From Burkholderia cepacia GG4 (GTDB lineage: Bacteria; Pseudomonadota; Gammaproteobacteria; Burkholderiales; Burkholderiaceae), in assembly GCF_000292915.1 (NCBI RefSeq), contig NC_018513.1:2728001-2792000 (forward strand): 64,000 nt of DNA, written 5' to 3'. The translations under genes were made by a program, and so were the position numbers. Position 1 is the first letter of the stretch, and each line of letters begins with the position of its first letter. This document shows, piece after piece, positions 9,964-29,323 of this stretch. Under the pieces are notes generated by a model. The model was not told where the DNA came from, searched no databases, and saw nothing but the letters and a program-made list of their open reading frames with translations.

Positions 9964-10968
9964 ATGGAAGCCTGGCTCGGCGATCTGCAGCAACTGCTCG
10001 CGCACGGCGAAGCGGCCGTGCTCGTGACGGTCGCGCATACCGACGGCTCCGCGCCGCGCGAGGCCGGCACCAAGATGCTCGTCACGCGCGACATGGCCCG
10101 CCATACGATCGGCGGCGGTCATCTGGAATGGAAGGCGATCGAGATCGCGCGGCATCTGCTGAAGGACGGCGCGCACGTGCCCCACGCGCGCAGGCTCGAA
10201 CGGCTCGCGCTGGGCCCGAGCCTCGGCCAGTGCTGCGGCGGCGCGGTGGTGCTCGCGTTCGAGCGGCTCGACGTCGGCGATCTCGGCTGGATCATGTCGC
10301 TCGCGAAGCGCGTCGCGGCCGGCGCCGCGACCGTGCGTAGCGTATCATTCGGCCCCGCGCCGGGCGCGCCGCTGCTGAGCGAGCCCGAATCGCCCGCCGC
10401 GCGGGCCGATTGCCTGCTGTGGGAAACCGGCGGCGTATCGCTGATGACCGAAACGATCGCGCCGTATGCGTTCCCCGTCATGTTGTTCGGCGCCGGCCCC
10501 ATCGGCACCGCGCTCGTGAAGGTGCTGGCGACGCTGCCGTGCCACGTGCGCTGGCTCGACGGGCCCGACGCGGTGTTCCCGCCGGCCGACGCGCTCGCCG
10601 GCATCGGCAATCTCGCGATCGACACACTCGCCGCCCCGGCCGATGCCGTCGACGCGGCGCCGCCGCAAGCGTACTTCGTCGTGGTGACGCACGACCACGC
10701 ACTCGATTTCGTGCTGGCCGAGCGCATCCTGCGGCGCGGCGACTATGCGTACTTCGGGATGACCGGCTCGCACACCAAGCGCGTGCAGTTCGACCACCGG
10801 CTGGCCGCGATCGGCATCGACCCGGCCCAGGTCGCGCGGATGCGCTGCCCGATCGGCGTCGAAGGCATCATCGACAAGGCCCCCGAAGTGATCGCGATCT
10901 CGGTGGCCGCGCAGTTGCTGCAGGCCGTCGAGGCGAACGCGCCCGCGCAGGCTTCCCACTCATTCTGA
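9964..10968 (+). CDS. xdhC: Xanthine dehydrogenase accessory protein XdhC
   Basis: 334 residues. The N-terminal XdhC/CoxI part holds the conserved TDGSAPREAGTKMLV, GGGHLEWKAIEIA and LGPSLGQCCGGAV blocks. The C-terminal half is Rossmann-like (VMLFGAGPIGTALVKVLA, and YFGMTGSHTKR near the end). XdhC binds sulfurated molybdenum cofactor and inserts it into xanthine dehydrogenase. It opens a run of purine genes (deaminase 18 bases downstream, then guaD). The xdhA/xdhB structural genes are not upstream here, so the chaperone is separated from its enzyme at least on this side. Confidence 0.93.
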   Translation: MEAWLGDLQQLLAHGEAAVLVTVAHTDGSAPREAGTKMLVTRDMARHTIGGGHLEWKAIEIARHLLKDGAHVPHARRLERLALGPSLGQCCGGAVVLAFERLDVGDLGWIMSLAKRVAAGAATVRSVSFGPAPGAPLLSEPESPAARADCLLWETGGVSLMTETIAPYAFPVMLFGAGPIGTALVKVLATLPCHVRWLDGPDAVFPPADALAGIGNLAIDTLAAPADAVDAAPPQAYFVVVTHDHALDFVLAERILRRGDYAYFGMTGSHTKRVQFDHRLAAIGIDPAQVARMRCPIGVEGIIDKAPEVIAISVAAQLLQAVEANAPAQASHSF

Positions 10969-12012
<1,044 letters not shown>

Positions 12013-12434
12013 CAGCCGGCATCGAGGTTCGCTAGACAGATGAAACACCGCAACGACATCCGCTTCGCGACGACCGGCTCGGCCCCGCGCCGCGCCGGCC
12101 GCATGCGCACACCGCGAGTGCACGCCCGCTTGGCGACGGCGTGGTGCGTCGTCGCTCGCCGAAGCCCGTCGTTGCGGCTCGTCGTGCGGTTCGCCGCCGC
12201 GCCGGTCGCGATTGCGATCGCGATCGCAATCGTAGTCGCAATCGCGGCACCGTCAGTCGGCAACCATGCGATGGCGGCCGCGGCCGCCACGCTCGCGTGC
12301 GCAATCGCAGCCCGCGACGGCGCCTTCGCGCCGCACTGCATCGCGCATGCACGGGCAGCGCCATCCATGCCGTCGCCCGCGCGACGCCGACCGTTTTCTT
12401 CTGTTCGCCTTACCTTGATGCAGGACCATTCGTC
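12013..12434. other. 422-bp gap before guaD with GCGATC-rich repeat
   Basis: An open frame (12040-12438) overlaps the guaD start by ATGA, but its Arg/Ala-rich translation looks like GC-driven noise with one hydrophobic run. The run comes from a six-base GCGATC/GCAATC repeat at about 12206-12246, which contains a perfect 24-base palindrome at 12209-12232. Confidence 0.4.
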
Positions 12435-13757
12435 ATGACGCAAACCGCTTTTCGTTCCCAGCTGCTGACCTTCAACGGCGACCCGGCGCAGTCGAGCCAG
12501 GCCGCGAACTACGAGACCGACGGCCTCCTGGTCGTCGATGACGGCAAGGTCGTCGCGGCCGGCCCGCATGCACGGCTCGCCGCGACGCTCGCACGCGACG
12601 CGGTCGTCCACGACCTGCGCGACAAGCTGATCGTGCCCGGCTTCATCGACACGCACATCCACTATCCGCAGACGGACATGATCGCGTCGCCGGCACCCGG
12701 CCTGCTACCGTGGCTCGACAAGTACACGTTTCCGACCGAGCGCCAGTTCGGCGACCCGGAACATGCGCGCGAAGTCGCCGACTTCTTCGTCGACGAACTG
12801 CTCGCTTGCGGCACGACGAGCGCGCTCGTCTACTGCACCGTGCACAAGCAGTCGGCCGACGCGCTGTTCGCGGCGAGCGACGCGCGTGACCTGCGGATGA
12901 TCGCGGGCAAGGTGCTGATGGATCGCAACTGCCCCGAGTTCCTGCGCGACACGGCGCAATCAGGTTATGACGACAGCGCGGAGCTGATCGATCGCTGGCA
13001 CGGCAACGGCCGCCAGATGTACGCGCTCACGCCGCGTTTCGCGCCGACCTCCACCGAGGCGCAGCTCGAGGCGTGCGGCGAACTCGCGCGCCGCCATCCG
13101 GACGTGTTCGTGCAGAGCCACGTCGCGGAAAACGTCGATGAAGTGAAATGGGTCGCCGAGCTGTTTCCCGGCCACCGCAGCTATCTCGACATCTACGATC
13201 GCTACGGGCTGCTGCGTCCGCGCGCGGTGTACGGCCACTGCATCCACCTCGACGACGAGGACCGCCGCCGAATGGCCGAAACCCGTACCGTCGTCGCGCA
13301 CTGCCCGACGTCGAACTTCTTCCTCGGCAGCGGGCTGTTCGACTTCGACAAGGCCGGCGAATACGATGTGCCCGTCACGCTCGCCACCGACGTCGGCGGC
13401 GGCACGTCGTTCTCGATGCTGCAGACGATGAACGAGGCGCACAAGGTCGCGCGGCTGTCGGGCCACCACCTGACCGCAACGCGGATGTTCTGGCTCGCGA
13501 CGGCCGGCGCCGCGCAGGCGCTCGACCTCGCCGACACGGTCGGCACGCTCGCGCCGCGCACCGAAGCCGACTTCGTCGTGCTCGACCCGCAGGCCACGCC
13601 GCTGCTCGCGCGCCGCACGAAGCGCGCGGATTCGCTCGAGGAACTGCTGTTCGCGTTCGCGCTGCTCGGCGACGACCGTGCCGTGTACCGCACGTACGCG
13701 GCCGGCCGGCTGGTGCACGAGCGCGGTGCGGCACGCCGCGCCGCCGCGGCCGCGTAA
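12435..13757 (+). CDS. guaD: Guanine deaminase
   Basis: 440 residues from ATG 12435 (MTQTAFRSQLLTF). Amidohydrolase-fold enzyme: PGFIDTHIHYPQTDMIAS gives the HxH zinc ligands. QSHVAENVDEV, YGHCIHLDDED and ATDVGGGTSFSML supply the remaining His/Asp ligands and the GuaD-specific TDVGGGTS motif. It deaminates guanine to xanthine in the cytoplasm, complementing the upstream deaminase and XdhC: adenine gives hypoxanthine, guanine gives xanthine, and both go to urate through xanthine dehydrogenase. Confidence 0.95.
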   Translation: MTQTAFRSQLLTFNGDPAQSSQAANYETDGLLVVDDGKVVAAGPHARLAATLARDAVVHDLRDKLIVPGFIDTHIHYPQTDMIASPAPGLLPWLDKYTFPTERQFGDPEHAREVADFFVDELLACGTTSALVYCTVHKQSADALFAASDARDLRMIAGKVLMDRNCPEFLRDTAQSGYDDSAELIDRWHGNGRQMYALTPRFAPTSTEAQLEACGELARRHPDVFVQSHVAENVDEVKWVAELFPGHRSYLDIYDRYGLLRPRAVYGHCIHLDDEDRRRMAETRTVVAHCPTSNFFLGSGLFDFDKAGEYDVPVTLATDVGGGTSFSMLQTMNEAHKVARLSGHHLTATRMFWLATAGAAQALDLADTVGTLAPRTEADFVVLDPQATPLLARRTKRADSLEELLFAFALLGDDRAVYRTYAAGRLVHERGAARRAAAAA

Positions 13758-13837
13758 CTGCCGCGCCCTTGCCCCGTCCTGCTGCGGCGTTCGCCGCGGC
13801 ACGGCCGAATTCGCAGCGGGTGCTGCGCGCGCCGTGC

Positions 13838-13843
13838 TAGAAT
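13838..13843 (+). promoter_or_regulatory. Extended -10 (TGC TAGAAT) ahead of the Mn2+ riboswitch
   Basis: TG-N-TAGAAT about a dozen bases before the GGGGAGTAGC block. The -35 is not clear, as is usual for extended -10 promoters. Confidence 0.5.
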
Positions 13844-13853
13844 TCGCCGCTCA

Positions 13854-14040
13854 TTGGGGAGTAGCCGCTCCGCTCGATGTCCCGCGCCCCCGGCGCGCAT
13901 CGTGACGGAGGCGTCCGTCAACAGACTTGGCCGTACGGCCATGGCGGACGCAGCCACCGAGGCCTGGCGAGACCGATGGTTCACTGCGCGCCGCATCAGG
14001 GCCCGGCGCGCGGTGGATCGTCGCTCGCACGCACAACACC
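13854..14040 (+). ncRNA. yybP-ykoY manganese riboswitch
   Basis: The hallmark GGGGAGTAGC is at 13856-13865. It is followed by a GC-rich P2-like stem, the CAACAGACTTGG segment near 13920 and a GCGAGACCGATGG block at 13967-13979. These correspond to the conserved metal-site strands of yybP-ykoY elements, which bind Mn2+ and switch on exporters. It sits directly upstream of a UPF0016/TMEM165-type gene, the expected target in proteobacteria. The 3' boundary is approximate. Regulation is probably at translation, since no obvious terminator is present and the gene starts with a weak GTG codon. Confidence 0.85.
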
Positions 14041-14059
14041 GGCCCGTGGAATCCCATCC

Positions 14060-23236: not shown

Positions 23237-23491
23237 ATGACTCATGGCTTGATTATGTGGCTCATCATCGGCGCGATCGCCGGCTGGCTGGCGGGCCTGC
23301 TCGTCAAGGGCGGCGGGTTCGGCCTGATCGTCGACATCATCGTCGGCATCGTCGGTGCGGTCATCGGCGGCTGGCTTGCCGGCGTGCTCGGCATCCACCT
23401 CGGCAGCGGCTTCATCGGCTCGGTGATCGTCGCGGTCATCGGCGCCGTGATCCTGCTGTTCGTGATCCGGCTATTCAGGCGAGCGGCCTGA
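23237..23491 (+). CDS. GlsB/YeaQ/YmgE family stress-response membrane protein
   Basis: 84 residues with a perfect ribosome-binding site (AAGGAGAGG) seven bases before ATG 23237. Three short hydrophobic segments rich in Gly (IIGAIAGWLAGLLVKGGGFG, DIIVGIVGAVIGGWLAGVLG, VIVAVIGAVILLFVIRLFRR) are diagnostic of the transglycosylase-associated/YeaQ family. Small inner-membrane protein often linked to envelope or acid stress; molecular function unknown. Single gene between convergent neighbours. Confidence 0.92.
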   Translation: MTHGLIMWLIIGAIAGWLAGLLVKGGGFGLIVDIIVGIVGAVIGGWLAGVLGIHLGSGFIGSVIVAVIGAVILLFVIRLFRRAA

Positions 23492-23567
23492 CGATCTTCT
23501 CGCGCGCCTTCGGGCGCGTTTTCGCATCGAAGCGGCGCGCGGCATCTCCCGCGCGCCGCTGTCCGTT

Positions 23568-24050
23568 TCAGCGTCGCTTTCCGCGCTGCAGCCAGCCGTC
23601 GAGCAGGTCGGTCGTCAGCAAACCGCTGCGCGCCTCGCGTGTGCCATCGCGTCCGATCCACACGGTACGCGGCATTTCCCCCCGCCATCCTGCGTCGAGC
23701 GCCGCCCGCAGACGCTCGGGCATCGGCTCCGCGTTCGCGTACTGCGCAACCTGCGGCGGCAGGTTCATGTGCGCGAGCGCCTGCGCGATCGCCGCGCCGT
23801 TGTCATCGTAAGCATCCAGCGCGACCATCGCGAGTTGCACGTCCGGATGCCGGCGCTGCCACACAACGAGATGCGCGGCGTTCTCGCGACAGTAACCGCA
23901 GTCGAGCGACCAGATCTCGACCGCGAGCGGCCGTTCGTGCGCCGTCGCGTACAACTTCGCGACCTCCGCCGCGCGCAGCGGCTGCAGTTCGCCAGCCCAC
24001 GCGGGCAGGCTGGTGAGCATCGCGCCGATCAACACCATCAGCCGTTTCAT
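23568..24050 (-). CDS. Periplasmic thioredoxin-like protein
   Basis: 160 residues with a cleavable signal peptide (MKRLMVLIGAMLTSLPAWA). A CGYC redox motif at residues 51-54 lies inside EIWSLDCGYCREN, which fits a thioredoxin fold. It is the last gene of the DUF2946/TonB-receptor operon, and its ATG overlaps the upstream stop by four bases (ATGA). A periplasmic CxxC protein in a putative copper operon could reduce or bind copper, or keep the Cys cluster of its partner reduced. That role is inference. Confidence 0.8.
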   Translation of the reverse strand: MKRLMVLIGAMLTSLPAWAGELQPLRAAEVAKLYATAHERPLAVEIWSLDCGYCRENAAHLVVWQRRHPDVQLAMVALDAYDDNGAAIAQALAHMNLPPQVAQYANAEPMPERLRAALDAGWRGEMPRTVWIGRDGTREARSGLLTTDLLDGWLQRGKRR

Positions 24051-25306
24051 TGCGCGCCCTCCACGGGGATCAGCCGGTAGCCGTCGTTACGCGTTCGCCA
24101 TGACAGGTAGATGCGGCCCGCATCGTCGAGCAGTTGCGGGTTGTCGCTCGCGCCCGCCGTCGTCGCGATCACGCGCGGCGCCGACCAGTGCTCGCCGCGA
24201 TCGTCCGAGCGGCGCAGCTTGAGCTGCATCGTGTCGCCGTCGAACGCCTTCCATGCGAGCCAGACGACATCGCCGCGCGCGACGAGCGCGGCATGCGAGG
24301 CCTGCTCGGCCGGCACCGCCGGATTCGCGCCGAACGCCCACGGCGTAGCGCGCGGCTGGCCGTCGGCGCCGATGCGCGAATAGAACACGTCGGCACGGCC
24401 GTCGACGACACCGAACCAGGCGAGATGGCGCGTGCCGTCCGGCGTGATCGCGAGTGCCGGCCCGTGCTCGGGGCATGCCTCGACGTGCCAGTTCGAGAAC
24501 GTCGCACGCACCGGCGCGACGGGAGCCGACGCCGCCACCGGCAGCACTGCCAGCGCATGATCGCGGATCTGCCCCGGGAACACGTTGCGCCACACGGCTT
24601 CGATGTGTCCGGCCGGATCGATCGCCATCGCGATGCGACAGCATTCGCACGTATGGTCCGTCACCTTGCGTTCGGGTTCGAACGATGCGCCACCGTCGCG
24701 CGACACCGCGTAGTAGACGGCCGCGCCTTCGTACGCCTGCCCCGCAGCCTTCGCCGCCACGAGATCGCGTTTGTCGATCCATGCGATCGCGATGTTGCCG
24801 GCGGGATCGACGGCCATCATGTCGAAGCGGTGCGTGATCGCCTGCCGGTCGCGATGCACGGTGACCGGCACGCTCCAGGTCGCGCCGCCGTCGAGCGAAC
24901 GCGAGAAGCGCACCATGCCGGTGTACGGTGCATCGAGCGGCATCGACCACGACACGTACACCGCGCGGCCGTCCGGACTCGTCGCGAGTTTCGGCCGATT
25001 CTCCGCGCTCGTGTAGATCGGCTCGGGCATCGCGTTGACGGTCACGGGCGCGGACAGCGTGCGGCCCGCATCGTCGGAATGCGCGACGACGGCATGCGCG
25101 CCTTCGACCCATGCGACCCACAGCCGGTGCCGTGCATCGAACGTGGCGCCGGTCGCGAGCGGTTGCTTCTGTTGCGCCGGCGCGGCCTGCATGCTCATGT
25201 GCGCCGCATGCGGATCGACGGCCTTCGGCGCGTCGTGCGCGCCGGCGGGCGACAGCGCCGCGAGCCACAGCGCACAGCCTGCCGCGAACGATTTCACAGC
25301 GACCAT
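24047..25306 (-). CDS. Exported Asp-box (sialidase-fold) protein of the putative copper operon
   Basis: 419 residues from ATG 25306, overlapping the receptor gene by 13 bases; a GTG at 25297 giving VKSFAAG is an equally good start. Signal peptide to about residue 23. The mature N-terminus is His/Met-rich (HDAPKAVDPHAAHMSMQ). The body is a beta-propeller with at least four Asp boxes of S-x-D-x-G form (SLDGGATW, SRDGGASF, SDDRGEHW, SDDAGRTL). Residues 218-223 read HTCECC, an unusual metal-ligand-like cluster. Catalytic residues of true sialidases are not evident, so binding rather than hydrolysis is likely. Confidence 0.8.
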   Translation of the reverse strand: MVAVKSFAAGCALWLAALSPAGAHDAPKAVDPHAAHMSMQAAPAQQKQPLATGATFDARHRLWVAWVEGAHAVVAHSDDAGRTLSAPVTVNAMPEPIYTSAENRPKLATSPDGRAVYVSWSMPLDAPYTGMVRFSRSLDGGATWSVPVTVHRDRQAITHRFDMMAVDPAGNIAIAWIDKRDLVAAKAAGQAYEGAAVYYAVSRDGGASFEPERKVTDHTCECCRIAMAIDPAGHIEAVWRNVFPGQIRDHALAVLPVAASAPVAPVRATFSNWHVEACPEHGPALAITPDGTRHLAWFGVVDGRADVFYSRIGADGQPRATPWAFGANPAVPAEQASHAALVARGDVVWLAWKAFDGDTMQLKLRRSDDRGEHWSAPRVIATTAGASDNPQLLDDAGRIYLSWRTRNDGYRLIPVEGAQ

Positions 25307-27648
25307 TTCAGTTCTCCAAAGAAAGTGCGTCCCGGATACGGGTGGAACACGTAGTAGCGGCGGTCCGTCAGGTTGTCGATGCCGACCGACGCGCTCCAGT
25401 GACGGTCGTAGCGGTAGCGTGCCTTCAGGTCGACGACCGTGAAGGTGCTCGTGCCGCCGTACACGTCCGGATTCACGTCGCTGTTGTCGAGCGTGTTGAA
25501 CTGGCGGCCCGAGTAGCGGACGCCGACGCTCGCGAGCCAGTGCTCGTCGAAGCGGTACGACGCGAGCAGGTTCGCGCGCATGCGCGGGATGCGCGGAAAG
25601 CGCGAGCCGACGTATGCGGGATTCGCGGCGTCGGCCAGGATCTGCGCATTGCTCGCCGATACGTTCGCGTCGATATCGAGCCCGCGCAGCCCGACGTTCT
25701 GGCCGCTGAATGCGAGTTCGACGCCGCGCACGCGCACCCGATCGACGTTCGAGATATTGGTGACGGTCGACGCCCCCGATAACGTCGTCTGGCTGTAGAT
25801 CGAATCGCGCAGGTCGCTCTGGAACACGCTCGCACGCACGACGCCGACGCCCACGTCGCGTTCGGCCGTGAAGTCCCAGTCGATCGCCTTTTCAGGGCGC
25901 AGGTTCGGGTTGTTGTTGACGATCGCGTTGTTCGCGATCGTGCCCTGGAACAACTCGCCGACCGTCGGGAAGCGCGTGCCGGTCGCGAACGACAGCCGGA
26001 AGCGCCAGACATCCGTCGCGTCCCATTGCAGCGCGACTTTCGGCGACAGCGCGTTCGCGCCGCGATCAGCATAGCCGTGCGTGCCGCTCGCGTTGCCGAG
26101 CGCGCCGCCGTACGCATCCCAGCGCTCGTAGCGCAGGCCGAGCGTCGCGAGCCACCCGGGCGCGAAACGCCACGCGTCCTGCGCGAACAGCGCCTGCGTG
26201 CGCGTATCGCCCCGGTAGACGTTCGAGAGCGAGGTGCTCGGTCCGGCCAGCCAGTCGGCCGTGTTGTACGTGACGTTGCGCAGGAAATAGTTGTCGTAGT
26301 GATAGCCGAACGTGAACGTGTGGCCCTTCACTTCCGGTGCCTCGGCCTTCAGGTCGAGCGTGCGCCAGCCCGTGCCGTCGCCCTGGAACAGCGTGCCCGC
26401 ACCGCCCCGCGCGGTCGACGCGGCGCGCAGCACGTCGCGCGACACGTCGTACGCGGACACCACGCCCGACAGCCGCCAGCCCGAATCGAGCCGGCCGTTC
26501 AGGCCGAGCGCGTACAGCCAGTTCTCCTGGTCGCCGCGCTGCGGCGCGAACGCACTCGGCGCGACGGTCACGTTCTGGCCGCCGATCGACACGTTGCCGC
26601 CGTAGACCGGATTGCCGGCCGCGTCGCGCAGGAAGGTTTCGCCGTGCTGCCGGAAGTGGTTCTCCCAATGCCCGAGCGTCAGCGTCGCGTCGACGTGGTC
26701 CGTGAACGCGTAGCCCATCCGGACCGTCTCGTTGATCTGCTCGGTCCGTTCGATGTTCTGCGCGCCGACGATCGTGCGCGGCTTGCCGTTGGGCCCGATG
26801 TCGGTAGCCGCGCCCGTCACGGGCACCGCGGCGCCGAGCTTCGGGTTGTAGGTGGAATTGGGGCTCGCATACTGCATCGGCTGACCGTCGTTCTCCAGCC
26901 GGTCGAGCGACAGCGCGAACCAGAATTTGCCGACGCGGTTCGCGATCCGCGCGGTCTGGTGATTGCCGCCGAAGCTGTCCGCAAACCCGTAGCCGTCGTG
27001 ATAGCGCTGCGTGAAGAACTGCGTCGACAGCGACGCCTCGAGTTTTTCGGGGCGTCGCGTGGTCAACAGCACGGTCGAGCCAATCGAGTTGCCGGGATAC
27101 AGCGCGGAAAAGGGGCCATACAGCACGTCGACGCGCGCGATATCGTCGGGTGCAATCAGCGACCAGCGCGGCGGGTACGCATAGCTCGAGCCGAGCAGGT
27201 TCGACAGCAGCACGCCGTCGGCGTAAACGACCCCGCGCGCGCTCTGCAGTTCGTTGAAGTCGCGGCCGGCGAACACGCTGTTGCGGTCACCGATGTAGCG
27301 CTTGCGGACCATCAGGTTCGGCGCGTACTTCAGCGCGTCCTCGGTGGTGACGTTGGTGTGCGTGTCGATCTGCTCGCGCGTGATCGACTCGACGACAGCC
27401 GGCGTATCCGGATCGACGGGCTGCCGCTGCGCGGTGACGCTGACGGCGGTCAGCGTGTTGCCGGTCGGCGCGGGCACGACCGTGGCGACTGATGCTGTGC
27501 TGCCGGCCGGGTGCCCGGCGTTGCCCGGCACCGGATCGGCGGGCGCGCCGTCAAGCGCGGCCGCCTGCGCAGCCGGCCAGGCAAAAGCGGCTGCGCAGGC
27601 GAGCGCGAGCCGACCGCGCGACGGCCGCGCGGCGAAGGTATTCGACAT
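25294..27648 (-). CDS. TonB-dependent outer-membrane receptor, putative copper-regulated (BfrG/OprC-like context)
   Basis: 784 residues from ATG 27648 (MSNTFAARPSRGR), with AGGA upstream. Signal peptide to about residue 30, then a plug domain (~80-200: VVESITREQIDTHTNVTTEDALKYAP, read as adjoining blocks, and RVDVLYGPFSALYPGNSIG). A 22-strand barrel follows, ending in the aromatic YVFHPYPGRTFFGELKWSL; Trp-Ser-Leu at the terminus is less standard than Phe. It would import a metal complex energised by TonB. The copper assignment comes from the DUF2946 gene upstream, not from the receptor itself. A 127-base gap separates it from that gene. Confidence 0.88.
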   Translation of the reverse strand: MSNTFAARPSRGRLALACAAAFAWPAAQAAALDGAPADPVPGNAGHPAGSTASVATVVPAPTGNTLTAVSVTAQRQPVDPDTPAVVESITREQIDTHTNVTTEDALKYAPNLMVRKRYIGDRNSVFAGRDFNELQSARGVVYADGVLLSNLLGSSYAYPPRWSLIAPDDIARVDVLYGPFSALYPGNSIGSTVLLTTRRPEKLEASLSTQFFTQRYHDGYGFADSFGGNHQTARIANRVGKFWFALSLDRLENDGQPMQYASPNSTYNPKLGAAVPVTGAATDIGPNGKPRTIVGAQNIERTEQINETVRMGYAFTDHVDATLTLGHWENHFRQHGETFLRDAAGNPVYGGNVSIGGQNVTVAPSAFAPQRGDQENWLYALGLNGRLDSGWRLSGVVSAYDVSRDVLRAASTARGGAGTLFQGDGTGWRTLDLKAEAPEVKGHTFTFGYHYDNYFLRNVTYNTADWLAGPSTSLSNVYRGDTRTQALFAQDAWRFAPGWLATLGLRYERWDAYGGALGNASGTHGYADRGANALSPKVALQWDATDVWRFRLSFATGTRFPTVGELFQGTIANNAIVNNNPNLRPEKAIDWDFTAERDVGVGVVRASVFQSDLRDSIYSQTTLSGASTVTNISNVDRVRVRGVELAFSGQNVGLRGLDIDANVSASNAQILADAANPAYVGSRFPRIPRMRANLLASYRFDEHWLASVGVRYSGRQFNTLDNSDVNPDVYGGTSTFTVVDLKARYRYDRHWSASVGIDNLTDRRYYVFHPYPGRTFFGELKWSL

Positions 27649-27775
27649 GGATGCATTCCTGAAAACGTGACCGGACACCGCCGGACGCGAGCCGACGCGC
27701 CGCGCACGGACGGCGCGGCGCGCGGACCGGGCCGCGGGCGGTACGCGCGCCACCGGGGCGCGCGGACGATATCAA

Positions 27776-28165
27776 TCAGATCGGGACGTTTTCAGGCGGA
27801 CCGCGCGGCTGCGCGAGGCGGATGCCCTTGCGGGGGAAATCGGGAACGGCCGGGGCAACTGCCCGGTACGCGAAGGCACGCACGAAACCCGGCAACGCGG
27901 GCAGGCTCGTGCCGAGCGCGACGTTCGCGGCGAAGCCGGGACAGTACACGCAGTGCGGCACGCCGGCATGGTCGAACGACGACGTGCGATGGTCGTCGCC
28001 GGACTGCGCGAGCACGACCTGGCGGGCGCCTGCCGCACTGCACAACTCGAGCGTGAGCTCGCCGGAACCGCTCGACGCGAGACGCGCGTAGCCGACGACG
28101 GGCGACAGTACGTTCAGTACCAGCGCCAGCCATACGAGGCCAATCCATCGCGTCGTTCGTTTCAT
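27776..28165 (-). CDS. cruR: DUF2946 family protein, CruR-like copper-responsive leader
   Basis: 129 residues from ATG 28165 (MKRTTRWIGLVWLALVLNVLSP, signal-like). Cys72-Val-Tyr-Cys75 lies in the DUF2946 hallmark GVPHCVYCPGFAAN. Residues 121-124 are RGPP, eight residues from the stop counting from R, in the position of the RAPP stall motif. In Bordetella pertussis the DUF2946 protein CruR heads a TonB-receptor operon. There copper sensed by the nascent CxxC relieves arrest at RAPP and triggers Rho termination before the next gene. Here the same order holds, with a 127-base C-rich gap before the receptor. The mechanism is transferred by analogy. Confidence 0.8.
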   Translation of the reverse strand: MKRTTRWIGLVWLALVLNVLSPVVGYARLASSGSGELTLELCSAAGARQVVLAQSGDDHRTSSFDHAGVPHCVYCPGFAANVALGTSLPALPGFVRAFAYRAVAPAVPDFPRKGIRLAQPRGPPENVPI

Positions 28166-28190
28166 CGCGGTCCAGGAAAAAGTGCGCGCA

Positions 28191-28196
28191 AGTATA
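28191..28196 (-). promoter_or_regulatory. -10 element (TATACT) of the DUF2946 operon
   Basis: TATACT on the minus strand, 25 bases before the start codon, giving a leader of about 20 bases. No good -35 is visible, so an activator or a weak basal promoter is likely. Confidence 0.45.
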
Positions 28197-28362
28197 ACAA
28201 GGGGCCCGATTGTTGCCGATCGTGCCGGAGCAATAGTCGGCATTGCGGCGCGCGCAGCAGCGCATGTGCCGTTAATACAACAGAGACAAAATCTAACGAT
28301 TCGCCACTGGCATAAATCCAAGCGCGAGGTTGATAATTATTGAACTTGTTGGAGAAACGACC

Positions 28363-28509
28363 ATGGACGAAAGACCAACCCGCATGCCCCCGCCCGAGCA
28401 AGTGATGAGCCCGGATCCGGAACCCGTCGGCGTGGAATTCCTCGCCGAATTGCCCGAGCACGTCCGGGCATTCTTCGACGAGCAGCACAAGCTGTACTCG
28501 CCGAAGTGA
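28363..28509 (+). CDS. Small hypothetical protein, 48 residues
   Basis: ATG 28363 is preceded by TTGGAG with an eight-base spacing. The product MDERPTRMPPPEQVMS...QHKLYSPK is acidic and Pro-rich, with no hydrophobic segment; its centre (VEFLAELPEHVRAFFDEQ) could form one amphipathic helix. I do not recognise a family. It lies divergently from the DUF2946 operon, with an AT-rich dyad (ATAATTAT) about 25 bases upstream. Good start signals and an uninterrupted frame favour a real gene. Confidence 0.6.
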   Translation: MDERPTRMPPPEQVMSPDPEPVGVEFLAELPEHVRAFFDEQHKLYSPK

Positions 28510-28729
28510 ACCTACGTTCCGTTCTGTAACCGCCACGTGTCGATCGTTACCGTGCGGTTCATCGCTGCGTTTTCGGCGCAGATCGCTTCGCACCCGGGCT
28601 GCAATGGCCTGACGGTGCCGGATCAGCTCGTCCGCTGATTCTTCTGTCGCGTCGTTCCGCCGCGCGACTGTCTTCGTCTATCCTTCTGGTTTTCCACCTC
28701 CGGCCCGCCCGGCTCTCCCGATCGTTCCG

Positions 28730-29323
28730 ATGAAGCAAGCCATTCGTGCCAGCGTCGCTGTCGCCGCGCTCTGCGCCGCCCTGATTTCTTCGCCGCACAT
28801 CGCCCGCGCAGACGGCGACGACACCGCGCTCACCAATCTCGTCGCGCTCGCGTCGCAGCGGCTCGCGCTTGCCGAACCCGTCGCGCGATGGAAATGGGCC
28901 AACCACCAGGCGATCGAGGACCGGCCGCGCGAAGCGCAGCTGCTCGCGTCGGTAGAACAGCGCGCGGGACAGGCCGGCGTGGATCCCGCGTTCGCGCGGA
29001 CGTTCTTCGAGGACCAGATCGCCGCGAGCAAGGAAGTGCAGAACGCGCTTTTTGCGACCTGGCGCGCGACGCGGCCGCCCGAAGGCGCGCCGCCCGACCT
29101 CGCGACCAGCACGCGGCCGGCGCTCGACCGGATCACGCAGAAGATGCTGGCCGGCCTCGCGCAAGTCGCGCCGTTACGCGACGCGCCCGATTGCCAGGCG
29201 CGGCTCGCACGCAGCATCGCGAACTGGAAGACGCTCACCCGTTACGATCCCACCCAGACGCAGGCGCTCGGCACCGCGCTGTCGCACGTCTGCTCCGCCG
29301 GCGGCGCAAGCGCGATCGGCTGA
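28730..29323 (+). CDS. Secreted (gamma-type) chorismate mutase
   Basis: 197 residues with a signal peptide (MKQAIRASVAVAALCAALISSPHIARA). The mature part is all-helical AroQ: LVALASQRLALAEPVARWKW carries the active-site Arg/Lys, ARTFFEDQIAASKEVQNAL follows, and a C-terminal Cys pair (APDCQARL and SHVCSAGG) fits the disulfide of periplasmic AroQ-gamma enzymes. It would convert chorismate to prephenate outside the cytoplasm, where the physiological role is unclear. Single gene, with no aro/phe genes beside it. Confidence 0.9.
   Translation: MKQAIRASVAVAALCAALISSPHIARADGDDTALTNLVALASQRLALAEPVARWKWANHQAIEDRPREAQLLASVEQRAGQAGVDPAFARTFFEDQIAASKEVQNALFATWRATRPPEGAPPDLATSTRPALDRITQKMLAGLAQVAPLRDAPDCQARLARSIANWKTLTRYDPTQTQALGTALSHVCSAGGASAIG

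Follow-up and report, generated by a model that had tools for sequence, protein, structure and literature searches.

How does a bacterium bring copper across its outer membrane and hand it over safely on the other side? Little is known of either step. The question is raised by a four-gene set on the minus strand of a 64,000-nucleotide stretch of Burkholderia cepacia GG4 (contig NC_018513.1, positions 2,728,001 to 2,792,000; the whole stretch is called the window here). In order, the set encodes a leader peptide of the DUF2946 family, a TonB-dependent receptor, a secreted protein with Asp-box repeats and a secreted thioredoxin-like (Trx-like) protein, in a genome of two contigs and 6.47 Mb. We consider it probable (about 0.6) that the set is a copper-starvation-induced uptake operon, in which the Asp-box protein, a putative propeller, would accept copper and the Trx-like protein would keep its cysteines reduced. 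The operon, its motifs, the conservation and fusions of the pair and the copper genes nearby are read directly from the DNA, and from them we infer every biochemical step. The parts of the set are as follows, in window positions.

28191..28219, minus strand: weak candidate for a sigma-70-like promoter (TCGGCA-17-TATACT, extended -10), 25 base pairs (bp) upstream of the leader start
27776..28165, minus strand: CruR-type leader gene, DUF2946, 129 amino acids (aa); PF11162 E value 1.5e-14, 55.2 bits
27941..27952, minus strand: CVYC codons in the leader sequence (C72, C75), presumed copper sensor
27794..27805, minus strand: RGPP codons in the leader sequence (R121-P124), presumed ribosome arrest site
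27678..27932, minus strand: C>G bubble (C in excess over G), candidate Rho-utilization (rut) region; peak C-G 20.5%
27649..27775, minus strand: intergenic gap of 127 bp between leader and receptor gene
25294..27648, minus strand: TonB-dependent receptor, 784 aa, called type TB1; PF00593 184 bits, PF07715 56 bits
24047..25306, minus strand: Asp-box secreted protein, 419 aa; PF02012 29.8 bits (cut-off 27); relatives named 'sialidase family protein'
25187..25237, minus strand: His/Met-bearing N-terminal tail (HDAPKAVDPHAAHMSMQ) of the Asp-box protein, after the predicted signal-peptide cut
24638..24649, minus strand: CECC codons of the Asp-box protein (C220, C222, C223), kept in 234/234 aligned sequences
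24473..24475, minus strand: codon of the fourth conserved cysteine of the Asp-box protein (C278), kept in 234/234 aligned sequences
23568..24050, minus strand: secreted Trx-like protein, 160 aa; its family profile matches StoA-, TlpA- and ResA-type PDB chains
23889..23900, minus strand: CGYC codons of the Trx-like protein; both cysteines in 63/63 representatives

The original prediction, made from the window alone, had placed the Asp-box gene and the CxxC Trx-like gene behind the receptor in overlapping frames, and this holds: the Asp-box gene shares 13 bp with the receptor gene and 4 bp with the Trx-like gene, with GGAG upstream of the start of each of the two downstream genes. The promoter candidate is the single match in 23400-28700, against 0.4 expected in shuffles, a weak signal.

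The Asp-box and Trx-like genes stay together

Loci were fetched through the Asp-box protein, so that their neighbours are unselected: a first set of 120 (labelled with L below, as are all loci) and then 13 phylum-wide, 133 in total, among them repeats of one genome (for example L059/L125 and L120/L184). The first set was drawn from 19 of 21 class-wide matches of at least 300 bits plus genome G050, from 20 of the 29 strongly matching Burkholderia genomes (a total that counts the window's own) and from the best 80 of 510 relatives; the later set represents 13 of 16 phylum-wide matches. The Trx-like gene lies 3′ of the Asp-box gene on the same strand in 117/120 and 13/13 loci, that is, in 130/133 (weakly in L182, 38 bits), and it begins at most 200 nucleotides (nt) from the end of the Asp-box domain in 115 of the 117 measured, with a maximum of 578 nt. 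Three loci break this rule: L051 (at a contig end), L054 and L049 (with the Trx-like gene 5 kb upstream). Profiles place a TonB receptor ahead of the pair, on the same strand, in 98 of the 120 first-set loci (truncated in L146). Three more receptors were judged by eye (L106, L121 and L141), and 12 of the 13 later loci have one, about 113/133 altogether; these receptors are of several types (three or more).

The two proteins are also found as Asp-box/Trx fusions, in six protein clusters, one of them named Rhodanobacteraceae, and separately in L044. On a tree of the Asp-box protein (67 rows, quick search, 22/64 inner branches well supported), the receptor type changes at least seven times, leader presence six times and fusion twice, with the pair constant. 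Since receptor type and leader change on the tree while the pair stays, the pair is the core and the receptor and regulator are exchangeable. The module is present in 29/369 genomes of the class (E ≤ 1e-20) and in 16/398 phylum-wide, with a strong match in 29/37 Burkholderia genomes; the window's Asp-box protein is 74% identical to the B. thailandensis copy and, over three quarters of its length, 75% identical to that of B. pseudomallei.

Some modules have further features around them. L157, from a metagenome bin labelled Bordetella parapertussis, carries a TB2-type module whose Asp-box protein groups with those of Rhodocyclaceae and Lysobacterales bins, and its label may be wrong. Behind the module of L057, positions 10842-14054 hold a second TonB-receptor-like frame and a 306-aa protein without a Pfam match. 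Genes for TonB (TonB_C in 7 of the 110 scanned frames) and for ExbB and ExbD (two of each) adjoin some modules (L043, L045, L053) and hint at dedicated energisation; this neighbour survey took in 110 of the 157 open frames and listed 25 of the 114 families.

Four cysteines, a His/Met tail and a redox partner

Alignment of 234 Asp-box sequences (from the first-set loci, the window and those listed proteins that reach 370 aa, with weaker matches excluded) revealed the same four cysteines in all of them, a CxCC motif (C220, C222, C223) and C278. The sole other cysteine of the window protein, C11, lies within the signal peptide. Among 83 representatives under 75% identity, H294 is invariant, H159, H250 and H338 are each kept in at least 95%, and Asp-box repeats occur in 83/83, which suggests a propeller fold. 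PDB matches of the protein are confined to short stretches of sialidases, and the [FY]RIP motif, a sialidase hallmark, is absent in 83/83 representatives. Counted from the predicted cut to the repeat domain, the mature tail is 23.3% His+Met, compared with 5.2% in the body, and the tail value is the higher one in 72/79 proteins; under a home-made cleavage rule, the predicted mature residue 1 is histidine in 22/80 Asp-box proteins and in 1/59 Trx controls.

The profile of the Trx-like family, whose two cysteines are kept throughout, matched StoA (E 1.4e-8), TlpA (2.1e-7) and ResA (1.9e-5) in the PDB, and a simple rule placed a cleavage site in 59/63 representatives. The window protein alone has no Pfam match; 12/20 members of the family match Pfam AhpC-TSA (E ≤ 0.1). 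With its CxxC, its thioredoxin-like character and its predicted export, the protein is of the TlpA/ResA type. Roy et al. reported 'AhpC_TSA genes' in cruR operons and termed their products peroxide-detoxifying (PMC9426467); some of these genes may belong to the Trx-like family described here.

The leader has the sequence features of CruR

According to the original prediction, a DUF2946 leader with CVYC and a near-terminal RGPP is followed by a C-rich 127-bp gap and a receptor gene. The leader, both motifs and the gap length were all found in place; with 51 C and 46 G among its 127 bases, the gap is G+C-rich rather than C-rich. The PF11162 score of the leader lies well above the cut-off of 23.7 bits, its N-terminus is hydrophobic as seen in the sequence, a candidate export signal, and C72/C75 are separated from R121-P124 by 45 residues, the spacing also found between the CxxC and the near-terminal motif of Bordetella pertussis CruR (PMC9426467). 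As there, the leader gene comes first and is followed by a long gap, which measures 162 bp in B. pertussis (PMC9426467). In the available part of PMC12992588, reporter constructs show arrest with RAPP as well as with RGPP, and arrest on CruR occurs in vitro.

Related leaders repeat the pattern. In the first 120 loci, all but one of the 56 leaders detected by profile (55/56) have both a CxxC and a near-terminal RxPP, and in 56 motif-bearing leaders (including the pattern-found L152) the spacing is 45 in 46 leaders, 46 in 9 and 44 in 1. The pattern is therefore more than chance, the spacing staying within 44-46 although the search admitted 30-60. At the variable position of RxPP, these 56 leaders have A (38), G (17) or D (1), and 39 nonredundant ones have A (30), G (8) or D (1); the latter were chosen by the pattern CxxC...RxPP, so that their invariance arises by construction and 55/56 is the independent figure. 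The 13 later loci include 8 profile-found leaders, 5 of them with the strict motif, and the leader of L175 was found by pattern (PF11162 46 bits). In 43 distinct Burkholderia/Paraburkholderia-type cores, the ratio of nonsynonymous to synonymous changes was 1.33, compared with 2.51 for uniform change, with pattern-fixed codons excluded and pairs uncorrected for kinship (1.10 and 2.58 with these codons included); therefore, the leader peptide itself is under selection.

The C>G excess is highest over the final third of the leader and extends into the gap, and its peak of 20.5% is matched by 1.3% of 78-nt windows. Across the 39 nonredundant leaders, the mean profile peaks at 14.8% at -88 to -10 of the leader stop, and individual maxima average 20.9%, a value that 7% of control stretches attain. 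A 10% bar is passed by 39/39 leaders but by 60% of controls too, and the bubble alone is not specific. B. pertussis has both the bubble and a mapped rut site in the corresponding part of the leader (PMC9426467). Conserved RNA structure in the gap found no support: the window gap, the one sequence folded, folds no better than its shuffles (z -0.38).

The genome holds four DUF2946 genes, the window leader included, and DUF2946 genes occur in 61/61 Burkholderia genomes examined. The other three leaders head an unidentified 311-aa gene and CopC (L035), a CopC-PCuAC set (L036) and an OprC receptor (L037; TIGR01778 842 bits). Every defining feature of the CruR layout that can be tested in the DNA is thus present at the window locus, as the original prediction had proposed, and the window leader is of CruR type; its copper response, arrest and Rho termination are putative. 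The L037 leader (about 1852569-1852898 on C2 of the genome) ends in REPP, not RAPP or RGPP, and may be a natural variant of the arrest site.

A further type of TonB receptor

At 46.1 bits, compared with a cut-off of 472.45 for TIGR01778, the window receptor is ruled out as OprC. The other reference is CrtA of B. pertussis, which, in the available part of its description, imports chelated copper for haem-copper oxidases (PMC12914433); CrtA has a PepSY_TM partner in >75% of loci and an invariant, essential histidine, H358 (PMC12914433). The window receptor differs from this published description in two features, having neither a PepSY_TM partner nor an invariant histidine; the genes that follow it are those of the Asp-box and Trx-like proteins, in the same order in 20 Burkholderia loci. 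No CrtA locus for direct alignment was identified among the extra DUF2946 loci searched. The window receptor is, by these comparisons, a further type, distinct from OprC and without the two CrtA features.

Copper genes and regulators around the pair

A PCuAC gene lies 3′ of the Trx gene in 9/133 loci (L172, L177, L178, L173, L175, L176, L179, L180 and L182), and L150 has one between its leader and receptor genes. In L172, L177 and L178, which belong to a class other than the window's, YcnI and CopCD genes follow too, so that the genes run in a single direction in the order leader, receptor, Asp-box, Trx, PCuAC, YcnI, CopCD. Pfam searches bore out PCuAC in L179 as well as YcnI and CopC/CopD in L172, and the remaining assignments were made by similarity to these. 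In another class, a leader heads a different receptor type and the same pair. The guess that the two extra proteins serve a copper route, also part of the original prediction, gains support from these nine loci, from the constancy of the pair and from its four-cysteine signature.

The leader is present in 57 of the first 120 loci, and CruR control is one of several regulatory settings of the module. A pattern search for divergent leaders in leaderless loci found none apart from L152, which is counted as a leader locus, and eight Rhodanobacteraceae loci read frame by frame held only unrelated-looking frames. Among the 104 loci of at least 15 kb, genes for a RegA-like regulator and a RegB-like kinase stand beside 38/51 leaderless loci and 0/53 leader loci. 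The best family matches in two tested loci were ActR/PrrA/RegA and ActS/PrrB/RegB, below curated cut-offs, and the GGxxNPF motif is present in 8/8 RegB-like kinases checked. In Rhodobacter, as far as the available part of PMC9147068 reports, RegA is a copper-binding protein, and the copper chaperone gene senC shares a transcript with group 1 regA/regB; this fits a copper role for the cargo beside RegB/RegA.

RegB/RegA-like genes adjoin the receptor-Asp-box-Trx genes in L039, L043, L047, L048, L053 and most of L078-L121. These counts do not amount to statistical proof that leader and RegB/RegA exclude each other: the pattern is clade-bound, and the tree offers only 3 to 5 independent pairs that differ in leader, with which a sign test cannot reach significance.

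Proposed mechanism and alternatives

We suggest that, when copper is scarce, ribosomes would stall at the RGPP of the nascent leader and keep Rho off the C>G region, so that transcription continues; copper bound by CVYC would release the stall and let Rho terminate before the receptor gene. The receptor would import a copper complex, which the periplasmic Asp-box propeller would accept, the His/Met tail catching the copper and the CxCC-plus-cysteine site holding it, probably as Cu(I). The Trx-like protein would keep the four cysteines reduced or would reduce Cu(II), like TlpA with ScoI, which TlpA keeps reduced according to the available part of PMC6696091. From there, copper could pass to PCuAC/Sco-type chaperones for respiratory oxidases. 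We put at even odds the wider proposal that the pair defines a class of periplasmic copper acceptor, a four-cysteine propeller chaperone with a dedicated reductase, which would be fed by several kinds of TonB receptor, supply PCuAC/Sco and stand under an arrest peptide or RegB/RegA depending on lineage.

Several observations weigh against a copper-uptake operon of this kind. No PCuAC gene stands behind the pair in 124/133 loci, the Burkholderia kin included, and that of the window genome sits in the separate leader-headed set. The leader was not seen in 63 of the first 120 loci, a few of which are short contigs, and some leaders depart from the motif: L057 has QEPP, L173 has CC instead of CxxC, and L179/L180 have AAPP. 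In 15 representatives of the window receptor's type, no histidine is conserved at 95% or more in an automatic alignment. Five Burkholderia genomes have the leader and receptor with the partner genes lost or broken (Trx fragments in L159, L160, L161 and L164; an Asp-box fragment in L162), and the pair is thus not needed for the receptor to be retained; a single deletion would explain the joint loss of the partner genes. Of the loci fetched with these five, L165 has all parts broken, and L163 and L170 are complete. In L159, L160, L161, L162 and L164, leader and receptor keep full profile length beside the deleted or degenerate partner genes.

The Asp-box repeats of all 83 representatives, together with polar residues that resemble a binding or active site (R104, H159, D178, R180, D181, R240, R248, D249, H294 and H338, each kept in at least 95%), could instead mark the Asp-box protein as an enzyme that frees the metal from an imported copper complex, for example by cleaving or oxidising the ligand, with the Trx-like protein as the enzyme's reductant. 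We regard this as unlikely, given the missing [FY]RIP, PDB matches that cover only short sialidase stretches, and fully conserved cysteines, which are more typical of metal or redox chemistry. Somewhat less likely again is a thiol-redox or repair system for respiration, in which the CruR copper control would reflect oxidase demand. Such a system would suit the RegB/RegA-like genes beside most leaderless loci and the resemblance of the Trx-like family to TlpA/ResA, but it leaves the TonB receptor upstream of most pairs, the His/Met tail and the PCuAC, YcnI and CopCD neighbours unaccounted for, and RegA itself binds copper in Rhodobacter. A different soft or transition metal, or a thiol compound, seems improbable as the substrate and as the signal for the leader: the receptor is not OprC, lacks the two CrtA features and is one of three or more types found with the pair, yet the sole CruR leader examined in cells reacts to copper (PMC9426467) and copper genes lie within some of these operons.

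Relation to known systems

A copper-uptake operon of the proposed kind has a close counterpart in cruR-crtA(bfrG)-crpH(bp2921) of B. pertussis, which, in the available parts of its descriptions, shares the DUF2946 leader, CxxC and R[AG]PP 45 residues apart, the long G+C-rich gap, the TonB receptor and the C>G bubble (PMC9426467; PMC12914433; PMC13038864). Its third gene encodes a PepSY_TM protein, whereas Asp-box and Trx-like genes follow here, and the window receptor has no histidine as conserved as CrtA H358. The oprC operon in the same genome is likewise a leader followed by a TonB receptor but has other partner genes and a receptor on the other side of the OprC cut-off. A copper-starvation operon of Bradyrhizobium japonicum is headed by a cruR homologue (PMC9426467). 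The pcuABCDE operon of that species resembles the window set in being copper-responsive and in combining a TonB receptor with PCuAC-like proteins; it differs in encoding two PCuAC-like proteins, a receptor and a membrane protein, with no Asp-box/Trx pair described in the portions available (PMC12617631, PMC6696091). TlpA-ScoI, as far as the accessible text of PMC6696091 goes, also joins a secreted CxxC thioredoxin-type protein, matched by our Trx-like profile, to a cysteine-bearing copper protein; here the partner is an Asp-box protein, not Sco, and the pair is co-encoded or fused. Bacterial sialidases and other BNR-repeat proteins (PF02012, PF13088) share the Asp-box repeats, but the Asp-box protein has CxCC, a fourth cysteine and a His/Met tail, and none of its representatives has [FY]RIP.

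The regulatory principle is thus known, and the cargo pair appears undescribed so far. No paper in open-licence PubMed Central was recognised as connecting copper uptake to proteins of the Asp-box or sialidase family; the word 'sialidase' is absent from the main texts of the CruR and CrtA papers, as is 'Asp-box' from that of the CrtA paper. Found in at least two classes of one phylum, the module is a direct candidate for the step that follows the receptor, recognisable by CxCC, the fourth cysteine, the His/Met tail and an unchanging redox partner. Proteins now annotated as sialidase or glycosyl hydrolase would then need renaming, and the loci provide a natural comparison of an arrest peptide with a redox two-component system controlling the same cargo genes.

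Neighbouring genes in the window

On the plus strand, a 48-aa frame without a family match lies divergent to the leader (28363-28509), followed by a chorismate mutase gene (PF01817) with a signal-like N-terminus (28730-29323). At 23237-23491, also on the plus strand, is a gene for a Transgly_assoc protein (PF04226).

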